Position numbers and translations under genes: made by a program
Part shown: positions 18,534-21,222 of the stretch, piece by piece
Layout: each line of letters opens with the position of its first letter
Numbering within the stretch: position 1 is the stretch's first letter
The notes under the pieces: generated by a model
Seen by the model: the letters and a program-made list of their open reading frames with translations, nothing else
Databases searched by the model: none
What the model was told of the DNA's origin: nothing
Assembly: GCA_900169975.1 (NCBI GenBank)
Contig: LT827126.1
Span: 558,001-622,000 of the forward strand
Origin: Pseudoflavonifractor sp. Marseille-P3106
GTDB taxonomy: Bacteria; Bacillota; Clostridia; Oscillospirales; Oscillospiraceae
Direction of reading: 5' to 3'
DNA: 64,000 nucleotides

Positions 18534-18641
18534 ATCCCCGTTCCGAAGTAGGATAACCAGCTTCTTTCCCCTCTATCCGAAATTGGGAAAAACATGTCTG
18601 CTCCAGATGCGAAACTGGGGCTGAATAAAAACGGTTTCGTA

Positions 18642-18690
18642 AAAAAGGACAAGGAATTTCTGTTTTGCGCAATTCCTCGTCCTTTTTATT
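18642..18690 (+). terminator. Intrinsic terminator after pyrI, possibly bidirectional
   Basis: A 17-bp stem with one mismatch (AAAAAGGAC and AGGAATT on the left arm, their complements at 18671-18687), followed by TTTTTATTTTT. Because A and T runs flank both sides it may also stop the broken minus-strand gene that ends at 18692. Confidence 0.8.
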
Positions 18691-18691
18691 T

Positions 18692-19126
18692 TTAATCGGC
18701 ATCTTTTTCGGTTTCCGTTTTTTTCGGATCCTCCTCTGCGTCTATCTGCGCCTCTTCGGCTTTTTCAGCATCCTCCATGCCATCAAATTTTTCTTCTTTT
18801 AAATTTTTTCGGTCATCTGCCGGGGCCTCCTGGACTCTTAAAATTTCCATCCGGGTGGAATCATTGCAAAGCATCTTCTCCAGCGGCTGCAGTTTCGTTT
18901 CATCCCATAGGCCACACGGTGCATCTTGATCCAGCTCTTTCCCGGCAATATAATGCCCCAGGGACAGGGCAAGGTTGGACTAGATGAGGTCCATGCGGTA
19001 AGCCCCCCATATGACAGCCGAAAGAACCAGGGCGGCGGCCAGCCCAAGCAGCAGAAAGTCCACCGTCTGCATTGGGAAACGGCTGTTCAGAAGGGCGTCC
19101 AAAAATGCCTGCAGGTAATCAGACAT
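18692..19126 (-). pseudogene. Degenerate membrane-protein gene, DUF4956-like N-terminus, with internal amber stop
   Basis: Reading from ATG 19126, the frame gives MSDYLQAFLDALL, then a strong transmembrane segment (TVDFLLLGLAAALVLSAVIW, residues 21-40), then a TAG at codon 49 (18980-18982). The same frame continues without other stops for about 95 codons into a very acidic, lysine-rich tail. The N-terminus resembles DUF4956 membrane proteins, which in Clostridia commonly follow VTC-type polyphosphate polymerases; here too the preceding gene is a VTC remnant 16 bases away. The tail does not resemble DUF4956, so an internal deletion may also have occurred. The family call is tentative; the broken frame is plain. 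Confidence 0.45.
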
Positions 19127-19142
19127 TGTCCTATTTCCTTCC

Positions 19143-19397
19143 TTAACTATAAAATTTTTTTAAAACAGCCCGGGAACTTCCGAACTTGCTGGGGGGCTTC
19201 CCCGTCAGATCGCACTGTACCAAAACCTCCTGGATCCGTCGGAACAAAAATCGGTCAAATTTGACCTCTAAAATTGTTTGGTCGGAAGGAAACGTCTTTT
19301 TGCAATTCAACTGGGGACGGAACAGGTCAAAGCAAAAGTTACAACAGCGCAAATTGTTGTCCAGGGTAATGCGGGTATTGAAGCCGGGGTGCGTATT
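19143..19397 (-). pseudogene. VTC-domain polyphosphate polymerase, C-terminal fragment
   Basis: Minus-strand coding remnant ending at TAA 19143-19145. It shows the C-terminal signature of VTC-type polyphosphate polymerases: THPGFNTRITLDNNLR, then DQTILEVKFDRFL, then a SKFGSSR end. It joins the inverted repeat of the inserted element at 19398. Its N-terminal half is on the other side of that element at 20802-21128. If the element is removed, the two sides join in frame as RRAY + THPGFN, giving a normal family sequence. Confidence 0.6.
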
Positions 19398-19418
19398 GGG
19401 CAGTGTCTGTAAAACAGC
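19398..19418 (+). repeat. Left terminal inverted repeat of the inserted element
   Basis: GGGCAGTGT-CTG-TAAAACAGC. It differs from the complement of the right end only at the three central bases (CTG versus TCA): 18 of 21 match. Confidence 0.75.
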
Positions 19419-19632
19419 ATTGCGCAGAGATTGACGAAGCAGTGCGACCGAGCGACTGAAAGCCGAAAACCAAATGGAATGGGTACGGTAGATGAACGCT
19501 TGCAAGGCACAGGCAGAAGAAACTGTGAAAATGGAATTGATTTACGATTGAGCGAGGAAGTCCGGGCAGAAAAACTGTTCAGACTTTTCTCATATCTTGC
19601 CAAAGTTGTGGTAGAATTGTTCACTGGTTTTA
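19419..19632. other. Left non-coding part of the inserted element
   Basis: About 210 bases between the left repeat and the promoter of the hydrolase gene. A 69-codon plus-strand frame (19431-19640) spans it, but it has no ribosome-binding site that I can see and no recognisable domain, and it runs into the promoter. It could be the relic of a lost gene such as a transposase. I do not call it a gene. Confidence 0.4.
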
Positions 19633-19641
19633 TGGTATAAT
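19633..19641 (+). promoter_or_regulatory. Extended -10 promoter for the MBL-fold gene
   Basis: TGGTATAAT matches the extended -10 pattern TGnTATAAT. The -35 region (TAGAAT 18 bases upstream) is weak, as is usual for extended -10 promoters. Transcription would begin near 19649, some 46 bases before the ATG. So the element brings its own promoter. Confidence 0.6.
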
Positions 19642-19694
19642 TTGCACAAGTAAAGAGAACGACAAGCCGGAATTTATAGAGGCGAGCATAGTAT

Positions 19695-20459
19695 ATGAGT
19701 GATTGGTTTACCGTTGAAGAAATTGATTCCCAAACATTTGCGATTAGTGAATATAAGCATTGGGAAGAAACGCACTGCTATCTGTTATGTGGTCAGGAAA
19801 GTGCAGTCCTCATTGATACCGGTTTGGGCGTTTCCAACATTAGAAAAATCGTAGATTCCTTAACAAGATTGCCCATTATGGCGGTTACAACTCATATTCA
19901 CTGGGATCATATCGGCGGTCATAAATATTTTGATAATATTGCCGTACATGAGAAGGAAATGGATTGGCTATCCGTCAAGTTCCCCATACCGCTGCAAGTT
20001 GTTAAGAATAATCTGACAAAGGTTCCATGTAATTTTCCGACAGAGTTTAATATTGATGCTTATCAGATTTTTCGGGGTGAGCCGCAAAGGATTCTGCACG
20101 ATGGCGATTGGTTGGATTTGGGCGGGCGGAAAATTCAGGTTATCCACACGCCGGGACACTCTCCCGGACATTGTTGCTTTTATGAACCGGGGCGAAAATA
20201 CCTGTATTCCGGTGATTTGATTTACAAGGGATGCCTTTACGCCTTTTATCCAACCACTGATCCGCAGCTTTTCTATCACTCTGTAAAACGAGTGCAGAAA
20301 TACAGAATAGAAAAGATTATGCCTGGTCATCACGAGCTGAACATTCCTGTTTCATTGATAAACGAAATCGAAGCTGGATTTGCACAATTAGTGAGAAACG
20401 GACAACTCAAACAAGGAAACGGACTGTTTGAGTTCAGAGAATTTCAAATTCAAATCTGA
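19695..20459 (+). CDS. MBL-fold metallo-hydrolase carried by the inserted element
   Basis: A 254-residue metallo-beta-lactamase-fold protein with the full metal-binding set: HIHWDH at residues 67-72, HTPGHSPGH in the middle, a GD pair after it (YSGDLIY) and PGHHE near the end. The family hydrolyses thioesters, lactones, phosphodiesters or beta-lactams; nothing here fixes the substrate, and there is no signal peptide, so a secreted beta-lactamase is unlikely. Base and codon use are clearly A+T-richer than all neighbours, which with the flanking inverted repeats indicates transfer from another lineage. The ribosome-binding site is weak (GAGG, 12 bases off). Confidence 0.85.
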   Translation: MSDWFTVEEIDSQTFAISEYKHWEETHCYLLCGQESAVLIDTGLGVSNIRKIVDSLTRLPIMAVTTHIHWDHIGGHKYFDNIAVHEKEMDWLSVKFPIPLQVVKNNLTKVPCNFPTEFNIDAYQIFRGEPQRILHDGDWLDLGGRKIQVIHTPGHSPGHCCFYEPGRKYLYSGDLIYKGCLYAFYPTTDPQLFYHSVKRVQKYRIEKIMPGHHELNIPVSLINEIEAGFAQLVRNGQLKQGNGLFEFREFQIQI

Positions 20460-20745
20460 ATGACAACTTCTGATTTGTCGGGGAGTTAAGCCAGAGCAAA
20501 AATTCCTTTAGAAACGAAGGGCGCACTTCTATACTCTCTATCGAGGGTAGTGCGTCCTACGGAGCTTTATTCTCCGTCAGCAGAAGAAAACTGCTTGACT
20601 GCGAAGTTGCATCACTTCGTTCCGTCAAGGCGGCTACACCCCCTTGCGCCGCTAAAGCGGCTATCCCCTGTGGACTTGCCGTCCGCGAACGGTTCTGACA
20701 AACCGTTCGCCGCCAGCAAGTTTGCATTAATTATATGTAGAAAAC
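20460..20745. other. Stem-loop-rich non-coding right part of the inserted element
   Basis: No gene is supported here. The stretch is packed with inverted repeats: GGGCGCACT/AGTGCGTCC around 20519-20560, a GCGCCGC/GCGGC hairpin near 20646-20660, and a perfect 10-bp stem GCGAACGGTT/AACCGTTCGC at 20685-20710. Such clustering is seen at transfer origins, recombination sites and structured RNAs; the sequence alone does not say which. Confidence 0.5.
20685..20710. repeat. Perfect 10-bp stem-loop inside the inserted element
   Basis: GCGAACGGTT at 20685-20694 pairs with AACCGTTCGC at 20701-20710 around a 6-base loop. No T run follows, so it is not an ordinary terminator. Confidence 0.6.
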
Positions 20746-20779
20746 AATCCTCCGTATGCTTGCAGGCATATGGAGGATT
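20746..20779 (+). terminator. Hairpin next to the right end of the element
   Basis: AATCCTCCGTATGC at 20746-20759 pairs with GCATATGGAGGATT at 20766-20779 with one G-T pair. It touches the right terminal repeat, whose GCTGTTTT supplies a short T run. It may insulate the element's gene from the host gene around it. Confidence 0.55.
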
Positions 20780-20780
20780 C

Positions 20781-20801
20781 GCTGTTTTATGAACACTGCC
20801 C
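20781..20801 (-). repeat. Right terminal inverted repeat of the inserted element
   Basis: On the minus strand it reads GGGCAGTGT-TCA-TAAAACAGC, the partner of the repeat at 19398-19418. Confidence 0.75.
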
Positions 20802-21128
20802 TATACGCCCGCCGGTCATACTCGGCCAAAGAGACAGGGCGATAAACCTGCGTCGTCATCAGGTCATAAGCATACTGTCATAGCGCAGTAGCGCCGTGTA
20901 CTCCCGCCTCAGCACCCGTATAGCATCTTCCTGTGAAATGATGACGCTCTCTTTTGTTTCCCTCCCGCAGTGTTTCTTTTCATCTCAAATTTGGCCATTG
21001 CAACCGCCGTATGCATCCGGGATCAACAAGCGATCCAGCGCATCCAGCAGAAACAGTCGGTCCGTGGGAGAGAGCAAGTATTTAAACTCCCTGTGGGACA
21101 CCGCTAAAATGGACGCATGATCATCCAT
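20802..21128 (-). pseudogene. VTC-domain polyphosphate polymerase, N-terminal fragment
   Basis: Starts at ATG 21126-21128 with GGGGGTGA as ribosome-binding site. It gives SHREFKYLLSPTDR, typical of VTC polymerases that make polyphosphate at the membrane, then a TGA after 47 codons (20985-20987). In the same frame beyond it comes KETKESVIISQEDAIRVL, so about 60 residues that normally lie between have been deleted. A further frameshift leads to TTQVYRPVSLAEYDRRAY, which stops at the element boundary. The gene has thus at least three lesions: deletion/stop, frameshift and insertion. Confidence 0.6.
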
Positions 21129-21174
21129 GGTCTCACCCCCTTTAATGCTTTTCTTCTTTCACAGAGAAAAGTAA

Positions 21175-21211
21175 AAAGAGCGTTCACGCCCAGCGGGCGT
21201 GAACGCTCTTT
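21175..21211 (-). terminator. Intrinsic terminator after polC
   Basis: A 17-bp stem (core GAGCGTTCACGCCC) with an AGC loop 12 bases after the polC stop, ending in TTTTTAC on the minus strand. It closes the pyrH-to-polC run. Confidence 0.92.
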
Positions 21212-21222
21212 GAGATCTTTCC

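Follow-up and report, generated by a model that had tools for sequence, protein, structure and literature searches.

A one-gene element with serine-recombinase-type ends in Pseudoflavonifractor sp. Marseille-P3106, probably a trans-mobilised derivative of a Tn6104/Tn4451-kind element

The window analysed here is a 64-kb stretch of contig C20 (558 to 622 kb). Within it, a 1,404-bp element with inverted ends lies inside a decayed VTC-like gene and carries one gene, for an MBL-fold metallo-hydrolase. Features of the locus are given below by window position and strand, with the evidence used in brackets.

19143..19394, minus strand: downstream part of the decayed VTC-like gene (PF09359 and alignment of VTC homologues)
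19395..19396, no strand: left AT core, the inferred crossover dinucleotide of a large serine recombinase (LSR); 19397 is a spacer T (in-register repeat across elements)
19398..20801, no strand: whole element, 1,404 bp from outer edge to outer edge of the inverted repeats (inverted ends, genome scan for the end pattern, homologous right pieces)
19398..19418, plus strand: left end, inferred attP half-site, GGGCAGTGTCTGTAAAACAGC (repeat search, genome scan, consensus of 38 cassette ends)
19461..19550, plus strand: tnpV 3′-end remnant containing an in-frame stop (plasmid DNA identity; frame read by eye)
19551..19675, plus strand: conserved leader before the cargo gene, with a terminator-like hairpin (19564-19580) and then an extended -10 (19633-19641) (locus comparison)
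19695..20459, plus strand: cargo gene, MBL-fold metallo-hydrolase, 254 aa, HxHxDH present (Pfam; motif read by eye)
20499..20724, no strand: conserved block of non-coding DNA with a homologue upstream of DUF3847-MobQ on a related plasmid (plasmid and genome comparison)
20519..20534, minus strand: MOBQ-type nic motif GTATAGAAGTGCGCCC, oriT candidate (exact match)
20746..20779, no strand: subterminal hairpin beside the right end (15-pair stem; similar hairpins at other cassette ends)
20781..20801, minus strand: right end, inferred attP half-site, GGGCAGTGTTCATAAAACAGC (repeat search, genome scan, consensus of 38 cassette ends)
20803..20804, no strand: right AT core; 20802 is a spacer T (in-register repeat across elements)
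20805..21120, minus strand: upstream portions of the VTC-like pseudogene, spread over several frames and with approximate limits (alignment of VTC homologues)

A repeat search of the region lists first an inverted repeat made up of the two ends and their flanks (35 nt, 83%, arms 19384-19418 and 20781-20815). Both fit the pattern GGGCAGTGTnnnTAAAACAGC, whose zero-mismatch copies in the 3.1-Mb genome occur at these two places only; at up to three mismatches the genome has four matches versus two for the reversed control. Several homologous right pieces from other genomes extend to an inverted end and then stop at about the same place. The repeat search and the two zero-mismatch copies bear out the discrete insertion with inverted ends claimed in a preliminary description of this DNA, and the insert in the window is confirmed as real. 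The 2- to 3-base duplication proposed there is actually a 2-bp AT repeat lying one base (T) outside each end. An IS630-type TA duplication, the first idea from the flanks, was replaced by this 1-nt-spaced core after 24 elements had been tabulated. A phage origin of the element received no match in a phage collection, and an Rfam cyano-S1 leader over the right-end hairpin was sub-threshold (25.8 bits, gathering 39.9) and taken as chance.

The downstream flank matches PF09359 (E = 3.7e-5 at G000:C20:577161-577379, window 19161-19379). Joined through one AT core, the flanks read YDRRAYTHPGFN, and this junction is spanned by five VTC homologues, four without gaps and the best at 35% identity; the fifth has gaps, whose query position was not printed. 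Frameshifts and stops in the N-terminal part make the VTC sequence a pseudogene today. The claim that the element splits one VTC-like sequence thus holds in that the two parts join across the element, but the gene itself has decayed. The palindromic target, also claimed earlier, was recovered as GCGTATACGC inside this now-decayed gene; it has neither an A-run nor a T-run. Relatives with an empty VTC site had been suggested as a comparison, and none was found among the 99 genomes searched, 39 of which have VTC. In the thirty VTC loci fetched, identity over the junction was at most 35%, and no VTC match came from the genus's pyrI-polC interval. The locus includes a polC-like ORF. Thirteen loci of the genus with such an ORF were compared, and none has a match to window 18579-21216; in 4 of the 13 the pyr genes lie 72 to 743 bp from the polC-like ORF, versus 2.6 kb in the window. 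The 1.4 kb thus did not belong ancestrally to the locus of these relatives, and the view of it as an insertion holds against all 13.

The preliminary description of the interior was right about the inverted ends and single cargo gene but incomplete, as the MOBQ-type nic motif and the tnpV remnant had been missed. The cargo gene is intact (PF00753, E = 4.6e-26), and the best solved relatives of its product are an MBL-superfamily protein and a hydroxyacylglutathione hydrolase. Its own extended -10 promoter, noted earlier, is seen as TGGTATAAT (19633-19641) in a block kept in five other loci: the leader is 81 to 86% identical to L038, L039, L041, L058, and L059, with divergence afterwards. Terminator-like hairpin calls in the element (two) show no excess over the shuffle mean of 1.5. 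The tnpV-tail stretch has 85% DNA identity over 237 bp to Campylobacter coli plasmids, covering the annotated TnpV end and the DNA beyond it. On one C. coli plasmid (L058, 2836-3625), the window's tnpV tail and promoter block are followed by an AAA ATPase and then by an aminoglycoside phosphotransferase family gene, so related modules may carry resistance genes. The block at 20499..20724 is 88% identical to two Oscillospiraceae plasmids and has homologues in other genomes; in L059, DUF3847 and MobQ genes come after the homologue of this right block. Blocks of the right piece (about 230 bp) are common to the one-gene cassettes and LSR-bearing elements described below.

No full-length match of the element was found among 198 other genomes, and partial matches occur in 36 of 199, own genome counted. 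Near relatives of the cargo gene (closest fetched: L006 and L009-L011), no ends with five or fewer mismatches were found within about 1.5 kb, so the cargo looks captured. A second MBL gene in the same genome (L056; C20, 1024104-1024857) has 79% DNA identity to the cargo gene and no matching ends in the stretch fetched. The earlier statement that the element contains no transposase also stands, with no transposase-like ORF noticed in the ORF lists.

Scanning 400 genomes of the family for the end pattern at up to two mismatches returned 76 matches in 47 genomes versus 8 for the reversed control. Pairing of inverted ends in the loci fetched, along the lines suggested in the preliminary description, revealed further elements bounded by such ends. 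The working set comprises 24 complete elements, 19 without an LSR (the window's included), which we call cassettes, and five with one. It is not a random sample, as pairs were found by script and by eye within the stretches fetched. Weak paired ends at four mismatches were kept (L129 right, L139 left); L084, with possible left ends at four mismatches, was left out, as were many single ends, several of them at contig edges.

The cassettes measure 604 to 1,882 bp and carry different genes. Pfam searches of ten cassette proteins recognised a glyoxalase, two GNAT proteins, TfoX_N, DUF559, and an alpha/beta hydrolase, and returned nothing for four. Tblastn at E 0.01 found no LSR or Mob homology in any of the 19, including the window's. 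The cargo of one cassette (L048, 1719-3399) is weakly like an oligonucleotide cyclase of defence systems (PADLOC, E = 4e-4). A stem scoring at least 9 lies within 45 nt of 28 of the 38 cassette ends versus 6 of 380 interior stretches, and each cassette has at least one end-proximal stem; this suggests that an inserted cassette may replace the terminator that its insertion splits.

The same genome holds a second cassette (L131, 878-1985; contig C19, 75377-76484; 1,108 bp), with a 228-aa ORF without a Pfam match, which splits a terminator-like palindrome. It is absent at the syntenic place in the sister genome G004, where the flanks (83% and 81%) lie 135 bp apart around an unsplit terminator-like palindrome and a T-run. 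Similarly, L136 is absent at the syntenic place in G053, with 137 bp between the flanks. For L128, an empty-site search of 61 genomes gave no match over most of the flank beyond its own genome, save in G490 (66%, 485 bases). Furthermore, L134 and L153, from two genera, are one cassette (95.4% identity over the whole length) with no common flank, lying in two unrelated palindromes. The preliminary description had made its case depend partly on a second genome in which such ends bound a discrete insertion; L134 and L153 at unrelated sites, and the absence of L131 and L136 from syntenic places, indicate that this exists.

Across the 24 elements, a 2-bp direct repeat stands in register one base outside the ends in 18 and is lacking in 6; seven other same-offset registers give 1 to 5 of 24, and the best unequal register gives 8. 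The register was found on this first set, and a second set served as the test, namely the 20 LSR loci with both ends minus three already in the first set. In these 17 loci, the core repeat is present in 16 (exception, L246) versus 0 to 3 at other offsets, and in 12 of 13 in a subset. The cores vary, being AT and TT/AA and, in the second set, also TC, CT, AG, GA, and AC. A 2-bp repeat is given as a product of TnpX-type recombinases in excerpts of PMC3158075 and PMC5704250, and the in-register repeat seen here is the apparent mark of a serine-recombinase crossover. End, spacer, and core add up to 24 bp; an excerpt of PMC3783163 gives a similar length, 25 bp, for the attP half-site of a serine integrase. 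For the A118 integrase, the same source describes a 5-bp shift of a zinc-ribbon motif between attP and attB; such a shift between the arms was sought by eye here and was not evident.

Left and right flanks are mutually complementary in 21 of the 24 elements versus 19% of 552 swapped pairs, at a threshold set by us; L144 is just at this threshold (8), and L136 (7), L147 (3), and L151 (4) are below it. Of the 15 pairs that could be measured in the second set, 12 are at or above this threshold, and L220, L266, and L272 are below. A4 on the left combined with T4 on the right was found in 14 of 24 elements versus 2.2% of random positions. By position, cassette flanks have an A-tract at -19 to -14 and C/G at -12 to -5, and an A-tract is present in 52 of 66 LSR right flanks (65 of the 66 distinct) versus a background of 8.5%. 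Judged by these sequences, the targets look like intrinsic terminators entered via the loop. Two Faecalibacterium LSR elements (L252 and L255, NZ_CP094467.1) have nearly the same flanks on opposite sides, suggesting that inversion between copies makes some of the target exceptions.

Among the five LSR-bearing elements of the working set, L143, L144, L145, and L151 have both ends and an LSR of 545 to 572 aa reading outward to the right end, and L147 has both ends and a truncated LSR. The two LSRs scanned for domains (L143 and L151) contain Resolvase, Recombinase, Zn_ribbon_recom, and DUF4368. A genome scan with five LSR queries gave 268 relatives, of which the best 80 were fetched, including the five query loci (L212, L214, L216, L229, and L254); 74 of the 80 were usable, with at least 100 bp after the LSR gene. 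An end at up to four mismatches lies within 250 bp after the LSR in 67 of these 74 loci (63 of 69 without the query loci), against a background of 1.7% of 2,000 random positions. The distance is 36 to 80 bp, all but two of the 67 falling at 36 to 61 bp past the last matched codon. Loci without such an end are L243, L246, L249, L252, L254, L255, and L274; six of these seven have an end-like sequence at five or six mismatches 38 to 78 bp downstream. Besides the first five, this LSR-homology set yielded 17 more complete LSR elements, and the hosts named include Pseudoflavonifractor phocaeensis, Oscillibacter, Faecalibacterium, Flavonifractor, Butyrivibrio, Holdemania, and Granulicatella. One 15.9-kb LSR/Mob element (L151, 3396-19261) also has matches to IetA and IetS, a candidate anti-phage defence, and a type II methyltransferase.

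The preliminary description had supposed movement in trans by a full-length relative. Relatives with the same ends were indeed found, but the enzyme that they carry is an LSR, not a transposase. The 64-kb window itself has no LSR match, and on C20 the closest ones are at 509-511 and 632-633 kb. In the whole genome, 20 of 21 matched loci were scanned for a helper LSR and none has such ends; a single five-mismatch end 123 bp after the LSR of L161 lies in tRNA-like sequence and was judged spurious. Runs of several different large serine recombinase genes occur in this genome at C20 960483-967311 and C18 267432-271763.

The nic motif GTATAGAARTGCGCCC, with three mismatches allowed, was found in 18 of the 19 cassettes (15 exact, window included; L139 is the miss) versus 4 of 300 mononucleotide shuffles. 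AAGTGCGCCC fits the MOBQ oriT consensus quoted in an excerpt of PMC3832669. At up to two mismatches, the motif lies 473 to 1,150 bp upstream of Mob in 37 of the 53 Mob-bearing LSR loci; in 10 of the 16 without it, the upstream sequence is shorter than 800 bp, and the other six, including the complete element L275, have sufficient length. Eighteen complete LSR elements divide into seven with Mob and motif, one with Mob only, one with the motif only, and nine with neither, L145 being counted as Mob by a 23-residue Mob fragment only. Fisher's test of this link gives p = 0.003, which is indicative only, as the sequences are related.

The element thus holds two LSR-type ends, AT cores, an exact nic motif, a tnpV tail and promoter, and an intact cargo gene, and is without recombinase, relaxase, and intact tnpV. 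We consider it a non-autonomous single-gene derivative of a Tn6104/Tn4451-kind IME, probably mobilised in trans, and from the sequence comparisons we put the probability of this reading at roughly 0.86. An unlikely alternative is that the element is a dead relic, left with its cargo after in-place decay of an IME and no longer movable. The broken tnpV, the decayed host gene, and the lack of a matching helper found in the same genome agree with this, and it is conceivable that this single copy is immobile today. However, the element retains its two ends, two cores, nic motif, promoter block, and cargo gene in intact form, and cassettes of the same plan occur in many genera, one of them at two unrelated sites in two genera, which is unlike decay in place.

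Less likely still is a mobile insertion cassette (MIC) or MITE of a DDE IS, the best candidate being the IS1182/IS1272 group. IS1272 and TnSha1 enter terminator hairpins without primary-sequence specificity, as the cassettes often seem to do, and both insert without target duplication (excerpts of PMC4923244 and PMC5678879). Moreover, IS1182-type ends in the host family, e.g., GGGGCTGTTGACAAA, are loosely similar to cassette ends. Yet IS1272 (compared by description) and TnSha1 are DDE-type IS that remove a portion of the target without leaving a repeat; the cassettes, in contrast, keep a 2-bp repeat, and the LSR genes that abut the ends in 67 of 74 loci also stand against a DDE IS. In 30 IS1182-type loci scanned, from 119 genomes searched, no cassette-type end was found at up to four mismatches. 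As the ends differ, the IS1182/IS1272 group was rejected as the mobilising family; the preliminary description had suggested looking for transposases flanked by the same ends, and these 30 loci contain none; the enzyme found beside such ends in other loci is an LSR. Finally, that the ends are a REP- or terminator-like host repeat flanking the MBL gene by chance is scarcely credible: palindromic flanks and frequent subterminal hairpins would fit, but the two sole zero-mismatch copies in the genome, the 76 matches versus 8 for the reversed control in 400 family genomes, the syntenic places lacking L131 and L136, and the association with LSRs all contradict it.

The reading as a trans-mobilised IME derivative places the element among several described systems. 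In excerpts of PMC10083194, a multi-targeting clade of DUF4368 LSRs (Cp36 etc.) has the same domain plan, many targets, and a TT core example; it differs in a T/A-rich target example, the main text uses neither "terminator" nor "palindrom-" words, and the excerpts do not mention LSR-less cassettes. Tn6104, Tn4451, and Tn4453 are described in excerpts of PMC3158075 and PMC5704250 with an LSR, TnpV, a mob gene, variable cargo, and a 2-bp end repeat, as in the family reported here. Relative to Tn6104/Tn4451, the window's element has lost its own integrase, relaxase, and working tnpV, and the in-register AT/AT end repeat is present. The relaxase is MobA/MobL in the LSR-bearing relatives versus the MobV said of Tn4451 (excerpt of PMC5704250). 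The LSR used here has 38% identity to plasmid genes annotated as tndX, and the likeness to Tn4451/Tn6104 is drawn from descriptions.

A CIME, according to an excerpt of PMC5704250, has lost its integration and transfer genes, keeps attL and attR, and is decayed and in tandem with another element. The window's element, with no LSR or Mob match at E 0.01 and with both ends and AT cores kept, is like this. Unlike a CIME, it is not in tandem and has no LSR match within the 64-kb window, and the cassettes stand alone, share a one-gene plan and a nic motif, and include one found at different sites across genera. By definition, the window's element is nearest to a CIME, working like an enzyme-less IME of the Tn6104/Tn4451 type. 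Integron cassettes are likewise small one-gene mobile units with diverse cargo, but they have one attC, are moved by the IntI tyrosine recombinase, and stand in arrays. The units described here differ from them in having paired inverted ends, their own promoter, a serine recombinase, and scattered placement.

In the mechanism that we propose, an LSR supplied in trans would excise the element as a circle by recombining its two cores. Insertion of the circle would follow at a palindrome with A-tract and GC-rich sequence, in many cases within an intrinsic terminator's loop. For the window's copy, the palindrome GCGTATACGC in the VTC gene would have served as the target. A MobA/MobL relaxase of a co-resident IME could nick the nic motif, so that the cassette could also pass between cells. 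The search of this genome for an LSR with such ends was negative, so the helper probably either was present only for a time or never left the donor, and the present copy may be stranded.

Because the cassettes keep the landing and putative export sites of the larger element, they probably jump, perhaps between cells, by means of that element's enzymes. We lean, with some reserve, toward a general cassette system of gut Clostridia, in which many LSR-less one-gene units with their own promoter, insulating hairpins, att ends, and oriT would be inserted with little harm into terminators and travel within and between cells on the enzymes of co-resident IMEs. Among the literature matches listed, whose texts were available in part, we recognised no description of LSR-mobilised one-gene cassettes or of LSRs targeting terminators. 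If true, such a system would be an array-free serine-recombinase counterpart of integron cassettes. In addition, intrinsic terminators, a structural class of sites, would be the attB of a naturally occurring serine recombinase, a property of use for insertion tools. Ordinary-looking one-gene units would then be mobile, with the end pair, 2-bp core, nic motif, and palindromic site as their signature, and mobile cassettes could explain scattered single genes in gut Clostridia, such as those for the MBL hydrolase, acetyltransferases, glyoxalase, and alpha/beta hydrolase.
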